Below are positions 15,044 through 23,321 of a stretch of 64,000 bases of DNA, piece after piece. The DNA lies in contig JAHCJV010000001.1 of NCBI GenBank assembly GCA_026126105.1, positions 62,001 to 126,000 on the forward strand, in the 5' to 3' direction. Source of the DNA: Enhydrobacter sp. GTDB taxonomy: Bacteria; Pseudomonadota; Alphaproteobacteria; Reyranellales; Reyranellaceae. The notes under the pieces are model-generated. The model was given only the letters and a program-made list of their open reading frames with translations. It searched no databases and was not told the DNA's origin. Both the position numbers and the translations under genes were made by a program. Every line of letters starts with the position of its first letter. Positions within the stretch are counted from its first letter, which is position 1.

Positions 15044-16006
15044 TTACTCCGGCTTATAGCCCGCGTTGCGCAGCAGCGTCGTATTCGTGTCGACCTCGCT
15101 CTTGATGAACGCGGTGAACTCCTGCGGTCCGCGTCCGGTCGGGACGAGGCCGAGCGATCCGCACTTGGCGATGAAGCCCTTGTCCTTGTTGACTTCGGCC
15201 ATTGCCAACGCCAGCCGATCGACGACGGCATCAGGCGTAGCCTTGGGTGCCCACACGCCGTACCAGGAGCTGAGGTAGAAATCCTTTAGACCGACCTCGT
15301 CCGACGTCGGGATATCGGGAGCGAGAGGCGTGCGCGTCCTGGAGGTGACGAACATCGCCCGCGCCTTGCCGGCGCGCGCGAGCGGCAGCAGCGCCGTCCA
15401 AGGATCCATGAAGAGCTGCACGCTGCCGCTCAGCAGGTCGGCGTTGGCCGGGGCAGTGCCCTTGTAGAGCACTGTGTCCAGCGGCAGCCCGGTACGGCGC
15501 AGGAACTCGAGCGTCGCGACATGGCCCGCCGAGCCGCCGGACGACAGAGCGAAGAAGTACTTCTTCGGCTCCTTCCCGATCGCGGCCATCGTACTGGCAT
15601 AGTCGGTACCGGGCACATCGATATTGACCAGCAGCACCAGCGGGGCCTCGCCCGCCTGGGCAATCGGCCGAAAGTCGGCCTGCGGGTCGTACGGACAAGA
15701 GGCGACGACGTGCTTGCCCAGCACGAACAGGCTCGCGTTGAACAGCAGGGTATAGCCATCCGGCTCGGAGCGCCGCACCGTGTCGGATCCCGTTACGCCC
15801 GAGGCACCGCCGATATTGCGGATGATGATCTGCTGGCCGATCTTCTCGGACAATATGTCCGAGGTGATGCGGCCGAAGCCGTCCGTCCCGCCGCCCGGTG
15901 GATACGGCACGATCATCTGGATTGGCTTGCTGGGATAGCTCTGCGCAATCGCAGGTGCCGCGAGCAGCGACGCGGCCGCGCCGCCGAGGATCGTCCGACG
16001 CCTCAC
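15044..16006 (-). CDS. Bug/TctC family tripartite tricarboxylate binding protein
   Basis: Extracytoplasmic solute receptor of the Bug family. Starting at the GTG at 16006 gives 320 residues: a signal peptide (RRRTILGGAAASLLAAPAIA), then YPSKPIQMIVPYPPGGGTD and the GTAPANADLLSGSVQLFMD segment typical of Bug folds. The GTG overlaps the stop of the upstream small gene in a GTGA quartet, which supports this start over a TTG nine codons earlier. No TctA/TctB membrane partners are nearby, as is common for Bug expansions. The likely ligand is a carboxylate; specificity cannot be read. Confidence 0.9.
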   Translation of the reverse strand: MRRRTILGGAAASLLAAPAIAQSYPSKPIQMIVPYPPGGGTDGFGRITSDILSEKIGQQIIIRNIGGASGVTGSDTVRRSEPDGYTLLFNASLFVLGKHVVASCPYDPQADFRPIAQAGEAPLVLLVNIDVPGTDYASTMAAIGKEPKKYFFALSSGGSAGHVATLEFLRRTGLPLDTVLYKGTAPANADLLSGSVQLFMDPWTALLPLARAGKARAMFVTSRTRTPLAPDIPTSDEVGLKDFYLSSWYGVWAPKATPDAVVDRLALAMAEVNKDKGFIAKCGSLGLVPTGRGPQEFTAFIKSEVDTNTTLLRNAGYKPE

Positions 16007-16413
16007 GGCTGGATGCTCACCGAAGAGTTGCAAGCCTTGCCAGCGGCTTCGCAGATCGTTCGAGCGACGCTGCGGACCTTAACGTCTGCGCAACCGACAC
16101 CCAGCGCGCGTGATGTATCCAGATGCTGTTTCAAGGTCGCTGTCTCCCCGGGTGCGATAGGAAAGAGCACGCCCTCCCGATAGGCCGACATCAACTCGAC
16201 GGTTTGCTGACGGCCATCGCTCAGTGCAACGACCAGATCGACCTGAAGATAGTCGATCGTCTCCGACGACTTGTTCTCGACCACCAGGCTCGGCACGCAA
16301 CTGCCGTACACAAGACTGTCCTCGCCGCGTTTAACATCAATGCCGTTTGCCGCGAGCGCCGACGACGTAGCAACAATCAGACCAAGCGCAATCAGGGAAC
16401 GCGTCCGCATCAT
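16003..16413 (-). CDS. Small exported protein of unknown function
   Basis: A 136-residue protein with a clear signal peptide (MMRTRSLIALGLIVATSSALA) and a mature part of about 115 residues holding four cysteines (GSCVPS, VGCADV, RTICEAAGKACN), probably two disulfides, and a predicted beta-rich fold. I do not recognise the family. GGGGAGGG lies 5-7 nt before the double ATG, which fixes the start. Its stop overlaps the tctC GTG, so it is co-translated with the binding protein and may be a secreted accessory to it (inference). Confidence 0.75.
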   Translation of the reverse strand: MMRTRSLIALGLIVATSSALAANGIDVKRGEDSLVYGSCVPSLVVENKSSETIDYLQVDLVVALSDGRQQTVELMSAYREGVLFPIAPGETATLKQHLDTSRALGVGCADVKVRSVARTICEAAGKACNSSVSIQP

Positions 16414-18711: not shown

Positions 18712-19659
18712 GTGAAAATCGCCATCATCCTCTTCAATCTCGGCGGCCCCGATTCTCCCGACGCCGTGAAGCCCTTTCTGCGCAACCTGTTCAGCGATCC
18801 CGCGATCATCACTTTGCCGGCCTGGCTGCGTTTGCCGCTCGCCAGCTTCATCGCGTCTCGTCGCGCGCCGAAGGCACGCGAGATCTACGCGAAAATTGGC
18901 GGGGGCTCGCCAATCGTCGGGCAGACCGAGGCGCAGGCGCGGGCGCTCGAAGCGGCGCTCGGCCCGGAGCACGAATGGCGCGGCTATGTCTGCATGCGCT
19001 ACTGGCATCCGATGACGGAGGCGGTCGTCAGCGCCGTGCAGCGCTTTGCACCGGACCGCATCGTGCTGCTGCCGCTCTATCCGCAGTTTTCGACGACGAC
19101 GACGGCATCGTCATTCAAGGCCTGGAAGAAGGCATCGAGCCTCAAGGCGCCGACAGTCGAGATCGAGAGCTACCCTACCGAACCAGGGTTCGTTCGGGCT
19201 TCGGTAGAGCTCATCACGCAAGGACTCGCAGCGGCCGGCGATGGTCCAAAGCGCGTGCTGTTCTCCGCCCATGGCTTGCCGGAGAAGATCATCAAGGCGG
19301 GCGATCCGTACCAGGCCCAGGTCGAGCAGACGGCGGGGGCGATCGGCCAGCATCTGGGAGGAGTGGATTGGTCAGTCTGCTACCAGAGCCGGGTCGGGCC
19401 GCTGAAGTGGATCGGGCCGTCGACAGAGGCGGAAATCCGGCGCGCTGCTGACGACGGTAGGGGAGTCGTGCTTTATCCGCTGAGCTTCGTGTCGGAGCAT
19501 TCGGAGACGCTCGTCGAACTCGACATCGAGTATCGCCACCTCGCCGAGCAGGCCGGTGTGCCAACGTACGTACGCGTGCCCGCCGTCGGCACCCATCCGC
19601 TATTCATCCACGGTTTGGCCAATCTGGTTCGGGCGGCGCTATGGTCTACGAGATCCTGA
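18712..19659 (+). CDS. hemH: Ferrochelatase
   Basis: Inserts ferrous iron into protoporphyrin IX (or the coproporphyrin-path equivalent). The GTG at 18712 gives 315 residues beginning VKIAIILFNLGGPDSPDAV, the normal family N-terminus; the frame is open further upstream but unconserved. LFSAHGLPEKI holds the metal-binding His, and SFVSEHSETLVELDIEY holds the conserved Glu. It ends 19 nt inside hemJ, implying coupled translation. Confidence 0.96.
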   Translation: MKIAIILFNLGGPDSPDAVKPFLRNLFSDPAIITLPAWLRLPLASFIASRRAPKAREIYAKIGGGSPIVGQTEAQARALEAALGPEHEWRGYVCMRYWHPMTEAVVSAVQRFAPDRIVLLPLYPQFSTTTTASSFKAWKKASSLKAPTVEIESYPTEPGFVRASVELITQGLAAAGDGPKRVLFSAHGLPEKIIKAGDPYQAQVEQTAGAIGQHLGGVDWSVCYQSRVGPLKWIGPSTEAEIRRAADDGRGVVLYPLSFVSEHSETLVELDIEYRHLAEQAGVPTYVRVPAVGTHPLFIHGLANLVRAALWSTRS

Positions 19660-20072
19660 AGGCCCTTCATATCGTCGCGGTGATTTCGTGGATGGCGGGT
19701 CTGCTCTATCTGCCGCGCCTGTTCGTCTATCACGCAGACACTCCGGCCGGATCGCCGCAGAGCGAGACCTTCAAAATCATGGAACGTCGGCTGTTCCGCG
19801 GCATCATGAACCCGGCGATGATCCTCGTCTGGATCTTCGGACTGGTGCTCGCCTGGCAGGGCCAGTGGTGGCACGCCGGGTGGTGGCAGATAAAGTTCGC
19901 GCTCGTTGCCGGGTTGACCGCCGTCCATCACCTCTACGGTCGCTGGCGCAAAGATTTCGAGGCGGACCGTAACAGTCGTCCGTCCCTCTATTTCCGGTGG
20001 TGGAACGAGGTGCCGACACTGCTGATGATCGCCATCGTCTTCCTGGCGGTCCTGAAGCCCTCCTTCGCATAG
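19641..20072 (+). CDS. hemJ: Protoporphyrinogen oxidase HemJ
   Basis: Membrane protoporphyrinogen IX oxidase of the HemJ (UPF0093) type. The 143 residues have four hydrophobic segments, the conserved early His in LKALHIVAVISWMAGLLYL, and a Lys in the third segment (WWQIKFAL) that the family uses with it. The gene overlaps the hemH 3' end by 19 nt. With hemE and hemH it covers late heme synthesis; hemD and hemY are at the far end of the window. Confidence 0.95.
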   Translation: MVYEILKALHIVAVISWMAGLLYLPRLFVYHADTPAGSPQSETFKIMERRLFRGIMNPAMILVWIFGLVLAWQGQWWHAGWWQIKFALVAGLTAVHHLYGRWRKDFEADRNSRPSLYFRWWNEVPTLLMIAIVFLAVLKPSFA

Positions 20073-20241
20073 GCCGTAGAGTTACGTAGCGGTACGACCG
20101 AAAAGTACGCGGTGTTCACCGGGCAATCGCGCGCCGCGCTACCCGCACGGTGAGTTGCGAAGAGGATGCGCGCATCGCGGGTCGTCGCGCCGCGCGAAAC
20201 CGGTATGGTGCGTCACGCCGCCGGCGCTATAAACTGTCGCC

Positions 20242-20757
20242 ATGAACGATTGGCGCGACGACATCTTCGAGGTCTTTCAGGACCATGACATCAAGCAGGT
20301 TTATCATGTGCCGGATGCGGGGCATTCGCGCCTCATAGAAGCCTGCCAGAAATCGAACTCGGTGCGCACTATGGCGCTGACGACCGAAGAGGAAGGCATT
20401 GCGATTGCCGCCGGCGCCTGGCTCGGCGGTCAGCGGTCCGCGATGCTGATGCAGAGTTCCGGCGTCGGCAACACCATCAACATGGTGGGACTGACAAAGA
20501 CGCTGCGGTTCCCGTTCCTGACGCTCATCACGATGCGGGGCGACTATGGCGAGTTCAATTCCTGGCAGTATCCGATGGGACAGGGGACGCCCAAGGTGCT
20601 CGAGGCAATGGGCATGCTGCTCTATTCGGTCGACAAGGCCGAGGATGTGAAGGCAACCGTCGATGCGGCCGCGCGCTCGGCGTTCCATGGCGGCCAGTCG
20701 GTGGCCGTCCTGCTGCGCCAGAAGCTCATCGGCATCAAGACATTCGGGAAGAAGTGA
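20242..20757 (+). CDS. Thiamine-diphosphate decarboxylase, alpha subunit (ComD/sulfopyruvate-decarboxylase-like)
   Basis: A 171-residue PYR-type half of a split ThDP decarboxylase. It has the activating glutamate region ALTTEEEGIAIAAGAWLGG (about 46-64) and the QSSGVGNTINM block typical of sulfopyruvate and phosphonopyruvate decarboxylase alpha parts. The PP half is the next gene, starting 1 nt after its stop. The substrate should be a 2-oxo acid; no phosphonate or sulfonate genes are near, so the substrate is unknown. A TATAAA string lies 10 nt before the start, but a promoter there is uncertain. Confidence 0.88.
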   Translation: MNDWRDDIFEVFQDHDIKQVYHVPDAGHSRLIEACQKSNSVRTMALTTEEEGIAIAAGAWLGGQRSAMLMQSSGVGNTINMVGLTKTLRFPFLTLITMRGDYGEFNSWQYPMGQGTPKVLEAMGMLLYSVDKAEDVKATVDAAARSAFHGGQSVAVLLRQKLIGIKTFGKK

Positions 20758-20758
20758 C

Positions 20759-21373
20759 ATGAGCCAGGCCACTCTTCAGCGCCGTCCGCTGGTGAAGAAA
20801 ATCCTCGCCGGTGCCGACGACAATCTCCTGGTGATTGCAGGCCTCGGCTCGTCCAACTGGGACATCACCAACGCGGGCGACCGACCACTGAACATGCCGC
20901 TGTGGGGCGCGATGGGAGCGCCGGTCGGCATGGGCCTCGGCCTCGCCATCGCCCAACCGACCAAGCGCGTGCTCGTGATCACGGGCGACGGCGACATGCT
21001 GATGAGCCTGGGTTCTCTCGCCACCGTCGCTGCCCAGTCTCCCGACAATCTCGCGATCTGCGTGCTCGACAACGAGAAGTTCGGCGAAACGGGTAATCAG
21101 GCGACGCATACTTCGCCGCGCAACAACGGTCCGACCGATTCGGGCGCCGGTACCGATCTCGCGATGATTGCCAAAGGCTGCGGGATCGCCGATTGCAGCA
21201 CCGTCACCGAGAAGGCCGAAGTGTCCCAGCTCGTGAAGGATCTGCGCGGCAAGAAGGGCCCGATCTTCCGCTTGGTCAAGGTGATGGTCGAGAAGCTCGA
21301 ATTCGTCATGCCGCCCCAGGATGGCGCCCATCTCAAGGACCGGTTTCGTCAAGCACTGCTCGGGAACCCCTGA
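20759..21373 (+). CDS. Thiamine-diphosphate decarboxylase, beta subunit (ComE-like)
   Basis: The 204-residue ThDP/Mg-binding half. The canonical GDG-to-N motif is complete: ITGDGDMLMSLGSL, then LDNEKFGETGNQ about 25 residues on. MPLWGAMGAPVGMGLGLA matches the entry to the PP domain. It pairs with the alpha subunit directly upstream. Its TGA shares an adenine with the next gene's ATG, so a C45-family Ntn hydrolase is translated from the same message. Related enzymes act on sulfopyruvate, phosphonopyruvate or similar 2-oxo acids. Confidence 0.88.
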   Translation: MSQATLQRRPLVKKILAGADDNLLVIAGLGSSNWDITNAGDRPLNMPLWGAMGAPVGMGLGLAIAQPTKRVLVITGDGDMLMSLGSLATVAAQSPDNLAICVLDNEKFGETGNQATHTSPRNNGPTDSGAGTDLAMIAKGCGIADCSTVTEKAEVSQLVKDLRGKKGPIFRLVKVMVEKLEFVMPPQDGAHLKDRFRQALLGNP

Positions 21374-22506
21374 TGGCCTATGCACCCTTTCCGCTCGTCG
21401 AGCTGAGCGGCAGCCCGCGCGAGCGCGGTCGTCAGCATGGTCATGCCGCTCCTGATCGTATCAAGTGCGGCATCGAGATGTATTCGGAGTCGCTGGTAAG
21501 GAACGGCGTCGACTGGAAGCATCTCGAGCAGCGCGCCAATGCGCTCGTGCCAGTGGTCGAGAAGTTCGATCCGACCTACGTCGACGAGATGCGGGGAATT
21601 GCCGAGGGGGCAGGGGTATCGTTCGCCGGTGTGATGCTGATGAACGCGCGGACCGAGATGGTCGCCGCGGCGCGCAAGCAGCACACCCACCAGCATTTCC
21701 CGGACGGCTGCACGGCGGCATTTGCCCTGCCCGAAGCCAGCGCCGATGGCGTGCTGCTGCACGGCCAGAACTGGGACTGGCGCGCCGAATGCGCCGAAAC
21801 CGGCGTGGTGCTGCGAATTCGGCGCGATGACGGACCCGATATCCTTACCTTTACGGAGGCAGGAGGCCTGGCCCGTTCCGGCCTGAACTCGGCAGGCATC
21901 GGGCTTACCGCCAATGCGCTGGAATGCGATCGCGACTATCAACGTGGCGCAGGCGTTCCCCTGCCCTTCATTCGCCGCAAGGTGCTGGAGAGCAGCCATC
22001 TCGCCGAGGCGATACGCACGATCTTCTCGACTCCCAAGCTGGGCTCAAACCACATGGCGGTCAGCCATTGCGGAGGTGAGGCGTTCGGCTTCGAATGCGC
22101 TCCGGACGAGACGTTCTGGGTCGCTCCCGAGCGGGGCATCTACGTTCATGCCAATCACTGGATCGCGGACGCCGCCCGGGCGCGCGTAAAGGACACGGGC
22201 ATTCAGGAAACCCCCTGCTCGCTATATCGCGACATGCGGGTGCGTGAGCATCTGACGCCCAAGCAGGGCCACCTGACCTTGGAAGATCTCCGGCAAGCCT
22301 TTTTCGACGATTACGGCTCGCCATATTCGGTGTGCCGTCCGCCGCGACCCAATAATCGCGGAAACACCGTTGCGACATCGGCGATGATCCTGATGCGACC
22401 AGGCGAAGGCCACCTCGAAGCTTGCCCCATGCCTGCGCTCAACAGGCAGTTCACGACCTATACACTCACGCCGGACAAGATGGCGCAGAAGCAGGCCGCG
22501 GAGTAA
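21373..22506 (+). CDS. C45-family Ntn acyltransferase/hydrolase (penicillin acyltransferase-like)
   Basis: A 377-residue member of the acyl-CoA:6-aminopenicillanate acyltransferase superfamily. These are made as inactive precursors and cleave themselves before a Cys that becomes the nucleophile; here DGCTAAFA puts that Cys at residue 113. HGQNWDW follows, the block that helps form the oxyanion site. No signal peptide is visible. The start overlaps the upstream decarboxylase stop (ATGA). Family members make or break amide or ester bonds. The pairing with a 2-oxo-acid decarboxylase suggests a small catabolic or biosynthetic unit of unknown substrate. Confidence 0.87.
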   Translation: MAYAPFPLVELSGSPRERGRQHGHAAPDRIKCGIEMYSESLVRNGVDWKHLEQRANALVPVVEKFDPTYVDEMRGIAEGAGVSFAGVMLMNARTEMVAAARKQHTHQHFPDGCTAAFALPEASADGVLLHGQNWDWRAECAETGVVLRIRRDDGPDILTFTEAGGLARSGLNSAGIGLTANALECDRDYQRGAGVPLPFIRRKVLESSHLAEAIRTIFSTPKLGSNHMAVSHCGGEAFGFECAPDETFWVAPERGIYVHANHWIADAARARVKDTGIQETPCSLYRDMRVREHLTPKQGHLTLEDLRQAFFDDYGSPYSVCRPPRPNNRGNTVATSAMILMRPGEGHLEACPMPALNRQFTTYTLTPDKMAQKQAAE

Positions 22507-22532
22507 TCGCTGCGGCCCGCCTGATGCTCGGA

Positions 22533-23321
22533 TTAGTCCGGGTACCACGAGGGCTTGCGCTTCTCCCTGAAGCTGGCCAGCCCCTCCGTCGCCTCGTCCT
22601 GCTGGCGGGTACGGGCATGCTCCTCAATCAGGTCTCGCATCTCGCCCTCGTCGATGAAGGCCCGCGCCGAGGCAAGCGCGCGAAGTTTGGTCGCCGACGT
22701 AGCGGCCGGGGCATTCATGAGCACTGCTTCGATGATCTTCCCTCCTGCCTCCTCCAGGCCCCCAGTTGGGCAGACCTCGTGGACGAGCCCGAGCCGTTGT
22801 GCCTCCGCGGCACCAAACCGTTCACCCGTCAGGGCGTAACGGCGGACCTGACGCAAACCAATGGCCTGGCAGAGTTGCGGCAGAATGATTCCTGCCATCA
22901 AGCCCCATCGTGTTTCGCTTATGGAAAAAACAGCATCCTCGCTGGCCACGACGACATCGCACGCCGCAGCTATTCCGGTACCGCCGCCAAAGCATCCGCC
23001 CTGAATCAAGGCCAGCGTCGGCACTGGCGTCGTATCGAGGCGGCGGATCGCCTCTGCCGTCAGCCGGCTAACGGCTTCGTTCTCGCGCGGGCTTTGTCGG
23101 GCGACCCCGCTGATCCAGGCCAGATCCGCCCCCGCCTGGAAGTGCCGTCCATTGCCTTTCAGCACGACGATACGCAGTGAAGGCTCGCGGCCCAGCGCAT
23201 CCATGGCCGCATGCAGGCCGCCGATGAGATCGCCGTTGTAGGCGTTGTTGACCTTGGGGCGATTGAGCGTGACGGTGGCGACGCCGCGCCGATCGACGTC
23301 CCAGAGAACGGTGTCGTTCAT
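22533..23321 (-). CDS. Enoyl-CoA hydratase/isomerase family protein
   Basis: A crotonase-fold protein of 262 residues. The oxyanion-hole strings GNGRHFQAGADLAW (about 55-68) and GGCFGGGTGIAAACD (about 108-122) are present; the second Glu of classical hydratases is not obvious, so the exact reaction is open. The C-terminus FREKRKPSW is typical for the family. Its ATG lies 1 nt after the stop of the SnoaL-like gene, so the two form a leftward operon. Confidence 0.88.
   Translation of the reverse strand: MNDTVLWDVDRRGVATVTLNRPKVNNAYNGDLIGGLHAAMDALGREPSLRIVVLKGNGRHFQAGADLAWISGVARQSPRENEAVSRLTAEAIRRLDTTPVPTLALIQGGCFGGGTGIAAACDVVVASEDAVFSISETRWGLMAGIILPQLCQAIGLRQVRRYALTGERFGAAEAQRLGLVHEVCPTGGLEEAGGKIIEAVLMNAPAATSATKLRALASARAFIDEGEMRDLIEEHARTRQQDEATEGLASFREKRKPSWYPD

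Follow-up and report, generated by a model that had tools for sequence, protein, structure and literature searches.

We examined a 64,000-nucleotide stretch of DNA from Enhydrobacter sp. (Reyranellaceae; assembly GCA_026126105.1, contig JAHCJV010000001.1) – hereafter the window, positions 1–64,000 – which is part of a 6.3-Mb genome. Three intact open reading frames follow one another on its plus strand: two encode the halves of a thiamine diphosphate (ThDP)-dependent decarboxylase (alpha and beta), and the third encodes a C45-family N-terminal nucleophile (Ntn) hydrolase/acyltransferase (C45). The open reading frames and their Pfam and NCBIfam matches bear out the initial annotation of these genes as a co-oriented two-subunit ThDP decarboxylase and C45 Ntn gene. 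We find that this trio is real and genus-wide, and that the Ntn gene is a later, separable companion of the decarboxylase. The genes and their features, in window coordinates, are:

20242–20757, plus strand: alpha subunit, 171 aa, the pyrimidine-binding half of a two-subunit ThDP decarboxylase (TPP_enzyme_N)
20386–20388, plus strand: conserved alpha Glu49, candidate ThDP-activating glutamate (alignment conservation)
20759–21373, plus strand: beta subunit, 204 aa, the diphosphate-binding half (TPP_enzyme_C)
20984–21073, plus strand: beta GDG (residues 76–78) to DN (104–105), putative ThDP/metal-binding motif (alignment, including alignment with RhiF, 9iz3_B)
21086–21088, plus strand: beta Glu110 in DNExxGETGxQ, a subfamily marker (RhiF has Ser, in DNGMHESTGGQ)
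21371–21375, plus strand: TGATG, the 1-nt overlap of beta stop and C45 start (sequence)
21373–22506, plus strand: C45-family Ntn hydrolase/acyltransferase, 377 aa (AAT, NF040521, and 2x1d matches)
21709–21711, plus strand: C45 Cys113 after Asp-Gly, predicted autoproteolysis site and nucleophile (aligned with the AAT Cys after Asp-Gly)
19641–20072, plus strand: hemJ, conserved upstream neighbour of the trio (NCBIfam and locus comparison)

Alpha and beta are separated by a single nucleotide, and the beta stop codon (TGA, 21371–21373) shares one base with the C45 start codon (ATG, 21373–21375) – one near-abutting and one overlapping same-strand junction, as is typical of operons. The 1-nt alpha/beta gap initially described is confirmed; the second junction is a TGATG with a 1-nt overlap and not the ATGA initially described. 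Among 41 measured beta/C45 junctions (that of locus L010 could not be measured and is outside this number) we counted ten 1-nt overlaps, one 4-nt overlap, one abutting pair, and 29 gaps of 9–33 nt. Because these 29 relatives have a gap before C45, tight beta/C45 coupling is no constant of the locus. A scan of positions 19900–22800 found no promoter-like site, and a terminator scan of the same region returned one match, on the minus strand inside beta, against a chance expectation of 1.8.

Pfam places a TPP_enzyme_N domain in alpha (4.8e-7) and a TPP_enzyme_C domain in beta (7.7e-22), so that the pyrimidine-binding (PYR) and diphosphate-binding (PP) domains of a two-subunit ThDP enzyme lie on neighbouring genes. 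Alignment also recovered the corresponding sequence motifs – GDG...DN in beta, which we take to be the ThDP/metal-binding motif, and the conserved alpha Glu49, presumably the ThDP-activating glutamate. For alpha, our subfamily alignment comprised 68 Reyranella-like and 72 outgroup sequences, and for beta 70 and 71, some rows being redundant copies; rows of 62–75% identity (e.g., L145) were placed in neither group. Alpha Glu49 and beta Glu110 are each kept in more than 97% of the Reyranella-like and more than 90% of the outgroup sequences, and we regard beta Glu110 as a candidate specificity or catalytic residue. The alpha subfamily is marked by the motifs VPDAGH, TTEEEG, LMQSSGVGN, and TMRGxxGExNxWQ, and the beta subfamily by GDG(D/E)xLM and DNExxGETGxQ, with single loci departing in part from both sets. 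The window alpha carries VPDAGH, TTEEEG, LMQSSGVGN, and RGDYGEFNSWQYPMG.

The trio is widespread among the window's relatives. Those closest by alpha are Reyranella, Enhydrobacter aerosaccus, and metagenome-assembled genomes (MAGs) filed under many names, and our genus sample consisted of 61 such Reyranella-like genomes, the window's own included. A strong alpha match was present in 56 of the 61 and a strong C45 match in 53, three of these being partial or in two pieces (G030, G034, G043); beta was recovered in 57 (TIGR03846, E 1e-20). Both alpha and C45 were found in 50 genomes, and in 44 of these they are adjacent on one contig; in the other six (G012, G014, G020, G033, G047, G054) they lie on different contigs. 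The initial annotation had asked for such a search, and it confirmed the three-gene order: the trio is not confined to this strain, and the decarboxylase genes are far from lacking the Ntn gene in all relatives.

The exceptions within the genus are few, and several coincide with contig ends. C45 occurs without an alpha match in three genomes of 73–85% completeness: G007 has beta beside C45 at a contig start, and in G034 and G048 the contig ends inside C45 or shortly before it. Six genomes have alpha and no full C45 (G004, G006, G045, G052, G057, G059), of which G006 and G052 retain C45 fragments and G059 has a contig ending inside beta. Neither gene was matched in G019 or G041 (89% and 60% complete). 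The C45 of locus L010 (G043) is in two frames, from a frameshift or an assembly error, and locus L034 (G060) has an extra, broken C45 fragment downstream of an intact C45.

All three genes are under purifying selection. In pairwise comparisons of the window with six relatives, the ratio of nonsynonymous to synonymous substitution rates (dN/dS) was 0.033–0.141 for alpha, 0.073–0.143 for beta, and 0.066–0.123 for C45. Only these values were used; hemE of L044 gave a nonsensical dN/dS of 2.4, presumably from a bad frame or alignment. We therefore rejected a strain-specific oddity, the trio being genus-wide, and, from the 44 of 50 adjacent pairs together with the low dN/dS, chance adjacency within the genus.

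To place the trio in time we built trees of alpha+beta, of C45, and of HemE+HemH+GlnD by a quick method with SH-aLRT support. A genome from a sister genus within the family (G247, locus L145) has the arrangement hemE-hemH-hemJ-alpha-beta, adjoined by glnD on the opposite strand; alpha and beta are each 67% identical to those of the window, and no C45 was found at E 1e-40 genome-wide or at 1e-3 in the locus. This arrangement, from one sister genome, implies that the hem position of alpha-beta predates the arrival of C45. Within the genus, the parts are split in six genomes: alpha-beta lies elsewhere, and the hem locus has C45, no more than ~30 nt from hemJ in L090, L091, L094, and L095 and 1.5–2 kb from it in L092 and L093. 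These six form one derived clade (support 99 in the hem-gene tree and 93 in the C45 tree), and in the alpha+beta tree they are joined by one trio row, L052.

A divergently oriented LysR gene stands beside alpha in 15 trio-type loci and in five of seven moved-type loci (L007, L038, L047, L048, L108), and its hem-locus copies are 71–84% identical to the L007 copy. With an orthologue at both the hem-locus and the moved copies, LysR-alpha-beta was most likely relocated as a single block while C45 remained at the hem locus. Where LysR is present, LysR-alpha-beta would act as a unit, with C45 as a separable partner.

C45 has also been lost. We counted at least three events in which it disappeared and alpha-beta stayed at the hem locus (L017 with L104; L022; L028); L021, where its apparent absence in the trees reflects a contig end, was left out of this count. 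The genome with the moved-type locus L049 (G004) has no C45 match, and four more high-identity alpha-beta pairs lie in other contexts without C45 (L030, L036, L045, L053).

Outside the genus the association loosens further. We searched a class sample of 385 alphaproteobacterial genomes, taking C45 matches to E 1e-40 and alpha matches to E 1e-30, and found C45 in 39 and alpha in 85. With four genus members removed, 381 genomes remained, with C45 in 35, alpha in 81, and both in 21 – and in none of the 21 were alpha and C45 adjacent, the genes lying on different contigs or at least ~0.24 Mb apart on one contig. Nor did alpha-beta have a common neighbour family across the class: 112 neighbours at 40 loci fell into 108 Pfam families, the commonest (MFS) counted eight times. 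At L097 (G061), ~5 kb separates alpha from beta; this interval holds an amidase and what looks by eye like a TRAP-like transporter set, and a nitrilase-family gene lies outside it. The genomes of another family, to which G297, G378, and G196 belong, carry some of the closest outside-genus C45 homologues (55–57%), unlinked to their alpha-beta genes.

The C45 protein is confidently assigned to its family, scoring 285.3 bits against the NCBIfam C45_proenzyme model NF040521 (cut-off 85) and 54.6 bits against Pfam AAT PF03417 (cut-off 23.2; E 1.6e-14). Residues 12–332 match fungal isopenicillin N acyltransferase (AAT, 2x1d; E 3.9e-28), a homology over 321 residues that keeps the Asp-Gly-Cys site and the Asn-Trp-Asp and Cys-Arg motifs. 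Cys113, which follows Asp-Gly as expected of the C45/AAT nucleophile and predicted cleavage site, is kept in 55 of 57 aligned sequences, the other two being gapped. Asn133, Trp134, Asp135, Asn261, and Arg322 are invariant, and presumably have the catalytic roles of the matching AAT residues; Arg329 occurs in all nine Reyranella sequences compared and in none of the five outgroup sequences. No signal peptide was obvious by eye.

The likely chemistry of C45 can be narrowed from its company in other genomes. Of 19 outside-genus C45 loci listed, three at ~30% identity were left out, and the 16 used include some near-duplicates. Their 93 neighbours comprise ten permeases, ten GntR regulators, nine family-5 solute-binding proteins, six ABC ATPases, four class III aminotransferases, four amidases, and two aldehyde dehydrogenases – that is, dipeptide-type ABC importers accompanied by GntR/FCD regulators, a class III aminotransferase, and an amidase. 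Unlike AAT, this C45 is bacterial, and the dipeptide-type importers beside its outside-genus homologues suggest hydrolysis over acyl transfer. This pattern suggests that C45 is a catabolic amide hydrolase.

The substrate of alpha-beta was approached through the two-subunit ThDP decarboxylases whose function is known, named between them by a review (PMC12141560) and a 2025 pathway paper (PMC12746152) as ComDE, RhiEF, and LumKL. ComDE, the methanogen sulfopyruvate decarboxylase, shares with alpha-beta a build of two small subunits, PYR and PP, and its models TIGR03845 and TIGR03846 are, with TIGR03297, the best equivalogs carrying a named enzyme. RhiEF, the rhizocticin phosphonopyruvate decarboxylase (9iz3, 9iz4), provides the closest solved beta (E 3.3e-12) and the third-best solved match to alpha (after 9u8r_A and 9u8q_A; 9iz3_A, RhiE), and has the same two-gene layout (PMC12141560).

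However, alpha-beta departs from both enzymes. The window pair misses the curated cut-offs of TIGR03845 (119.2 bits against 147.95) and TIGR03846 (117.7 against 221.5), and beta passes the latter in none of the 61 genus genomes, whereas both methanogen controls pass. TIGR03297 is also missed (69.2 and 101.4 bits against 312.5), though as a single-chain model it is not expected to be reached by either half alone. The top NCBIfam match of beta, NF004813 (124.9 bits; cut-off 240), is a family that has no name. The RhiF loop DNGMHESTGGQ is replaced in beta by DNExxGETGxQ, and RhiE has RGAYGNDAVEH where the window alpha has RGDYGEFNSWQ; since the beta loop follows the ThDP motif, its difference from RhiF makes another substrate likely. 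Xsc and PhnX scored above cut-off in none of 62 genus genomes each, in searches that had no positive control, as no control exceeded these cut-offs either. As judged from these motifs and scores, alpha-beta belongs to a separate, common alphaproteobacterial subfamily related to ComDE/RhiEF and equipped with its own loop motifs, and its substrate is likely to differ from that of RhiEF. Sulfopyruvate and phosphonopyruvate, initially offered as the comparison substrates, thus look unlikely.

Some relatives instead have neighbours that fit conversion of a 2-oxo acid to an aldehyde. Betaproteobacterial alpha-beta loci include aldehyde dehydrogenase (ALDH), CoA-transferase III, acyl-CoA dehydrogenase, an enolase-superfamily protein, and a second ThDP enzyme; L151 has the order MR_MLE-alpha-beta-ALDH and L183 TctA-alpha-beta. 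L158 and L178 have genes of the HIBADH (3-hydroxyisobutyrate dehydrogenase)-like type next to alpha-beta; in the moved Reyranella loci there are an IlvD-type dehydratase and a CoA ligase. The ALDH, HIBADH-like, and MR_MLE/IlvD-type (sugar-acid-type dehydratase) neighbours fit the suggested reaction, but only in a minority of loci. L156, L160, and the moved Reyranella loci (L007, L047–L050) have both an AMP-ligase and a MaoC-like dehydratase alongside alpha-beta; their recurrence in two unrelated groups hints at a common acyl-CoA pathway.

Taken as a whole, the explanation we favour – with confidence a little above an even chance – is that alpha-beta decarboxylates a 2-oxo acid of neither the sulfo nor the phosphono kind and that C45 is a separable, later-added cytosolic amide hydrolase. 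Alpha and beta would form one ThDP-dependent 2-oxo acid decarboxylase of ComDE/RhiEF architecture in a subfamily of its own, most likely turning a 2-oxo acid other than sulfopyruvate or phosphonopyruvate into an aldehyde. C45 would cut itself between Gly112 and Cys113, as the conservation of the site suggests, and would hydrolyse an amide in the cytosol. Alpha-beta would have stood at the hem locus before the genus arose, C45 would have joined it on the downstream side in the ancestor of Reyranella, and the trio would then have been kept as a probable transcription unit, judging by order and spacing. That the C45 product feeds alpha-beta is a more tentative proposition, and we think it doubtful.

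Several observations weigh against this explanation. The adjacency is found in one genus and within a conserved hem block, and may reflect inertia. No LysR gene was found in the moved-type loci L049 and L050 or in the window. Sub-cut-off matches to Xsc and PhnX occur in all 62 genomes and in all 14 controls, with no control above the cut-offs – although such weaker matches could be any ThDP or HAD-type enzyme – and further routes for sulfo- or phosphonoacetaldehyde exist. The neighbours of alpha-beta, spread over 108 families, are so mixed that the aldehyde assignment draws on a minority of loci. Finally, an AlphaFold model of C45 built with 19 close sequences had a mean pLDDT of 38 and was discarded as unusable.

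The strongest competing account, which falls somewhat short of an even chance, is that alpha-beta and C45 are two unrelated housekeeping or catabolic genes that share a transcript by location only, held together by synteny inertia in the hem block. The block glnD-tctC-PSRP-hemE-hemH-hemJ (names partly by eye) does recur in most loci of sufficient reach, in six genomes the hem locus has C45 but lacks alpha-beta, and the gene after C45 varies, being cysK-like, a membrane protein, or of the enoyl-CoA hydratase family. Inertia alone sits less easily with adjacency in 44 of 50 genomes and close spacing in divergent species, or with the fact that only three genus genomes have C45 and no alpha, each with a contig end beside C45 and one still with beta.

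A dedicated three-gene pathway, in which amide hydrolysis by C45 unmasks a carboxylate that adjoins a C=O or C=N bond and alpha-beta decarboxylates it, strikes us as rather unlikely. It has a published precedent: in riboflavin catabolism, the two-subunit ThDP enzyme LumKL decarboxylates a quinoxaline carboxylate made by the hydrolases LumH, LumI, and LumM, and its authors state that, LumKL apart, such decarboxylases had been known from just two sources, the biosynthesis of rhizocticin and that of coenzyme M (PMC12746152). LumKL resembles alpha-beta in subunit size (20 and 23 kDa) and is fed by amide/urea hydrolases, according to that report (PMC12746152); the annotated neighbours of the trio – hem, enoyl-CoA hydratase-family, SnoaL-like, and TctC genes – include no riboflavin-pathway partner.

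Amide hydrolases of other families also adjoin alpha-beta at some loci of unrelated genera. An M20-type peptidase/amidohydrolase gene lies 12–15 nt downstream of beta in L146 (by Pfam), L147, and L152 (both by BLAST), all from one genus (G297, G378, G196), and an amidase lies 27 nt upstream of alpha-beta in L168; L097 has both amidase and nitrilase-family genes, and L056 and L177 have an amidase by BLAST label. These are a minority of alpha-beta neighbours and are suggestive only. Co-occurrence of alpha and C45 outside the genus exceeds chance (21 observed against 7.4 expected, Fisher 1.5e-7, n = 381), but both genome size and phylogeny are confounders here, and it falls to 8 of 18 (p = 0.03) with closer C45s (E to 1e-80). 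C45 and alpha-beta separate freely. The idea that exactly this trio is needed is not upheld: C45 is absent from the sister-genus locus, stays at the hem locus where alpha-beta sits elsewhere, was lost repeatedly, and is adjacent to alpha in none of the 21 genomes outside the genus that have both. We accordingly downgraded the exact-trio pathway.

A broader proposal, and one we consider improbable, is that alpha-beta represents a further functional class of two-subunit ThDP decarboxylase beyond ComDE, RhiEF, and LumKL, widespread in Alphaproteobacteria, to which the unrelated C45, M20, and amidase/nitrilase-family enzymes were recruited independently to supply or unmask its acid. We consider it very improbable that alpha-beta truly acts as a sulfopyruvate or phosphonopyruvate decarboxylase, despite its best named models and its solved relative RhiEF, given that all three models fall below their cut-offs, that the RhiF ESTGGQ loop is replaced by GETGxQ, and that Xsc and PhnX exceed their cut-offs in none of the 62 genomes; we rejected catabolism of these two acids as the best reading.

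Searching titles and abstract beginnings in the open-licence PMC literature, we found no paper on the gene trio or the alpha-beta subfamily and no characterised member of the latter. The subfamily occurs in 85 of the 385 class genomes searched; the named models closest to it are those for sulfopyruvate and phosphonopyruvate decarboxylase, while the evidence goes against both substrates. Knowing what alpha-beta acts on would assign a role to two genes that many genomes share. The Reyranella trio lends itself to such work, with natural variants that lack C45 or have the parts in separate places.

In the window, alpha is preceded by hemE, hemH, and hemJ (the first two named by eye and by their sister-genus homologue, with a Pfam ferrochelatase match, and hemJ by NCBIfam). 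Downstream of C45, on the opposite strand, are an enoyl-CoA hydratase-family gene and a SnoaL-like gene (Pfam). A TctC-type solute-binding protein gene (15044–16033) lies by the hem block, as in many relatives. A cysteine-synthase-like gene (by eye) follows C45 by 3–19 nt on the same strand in L004, L018, L023, L027, L032, L046, L051, and L054, and follows the C45 remnant in L022; none was seen beside the window trio. Reyranella-type versions of the genes studied here also appear in records named Asaia bogorensis, Rhizobium sp., and Syntrophaceae (L017, L028, L032, L053), where the MAG names look wrong, or the bins are mixed, or, for L053, the genes were transferred. The window's genome itself contains a second, divergent alpha-beta pair (G000:C197, locus L096), whose alpha is 53% identical and which lies near LysR, a TctC-like binding protein, and a TauD/TfdA-family dioxygenase.

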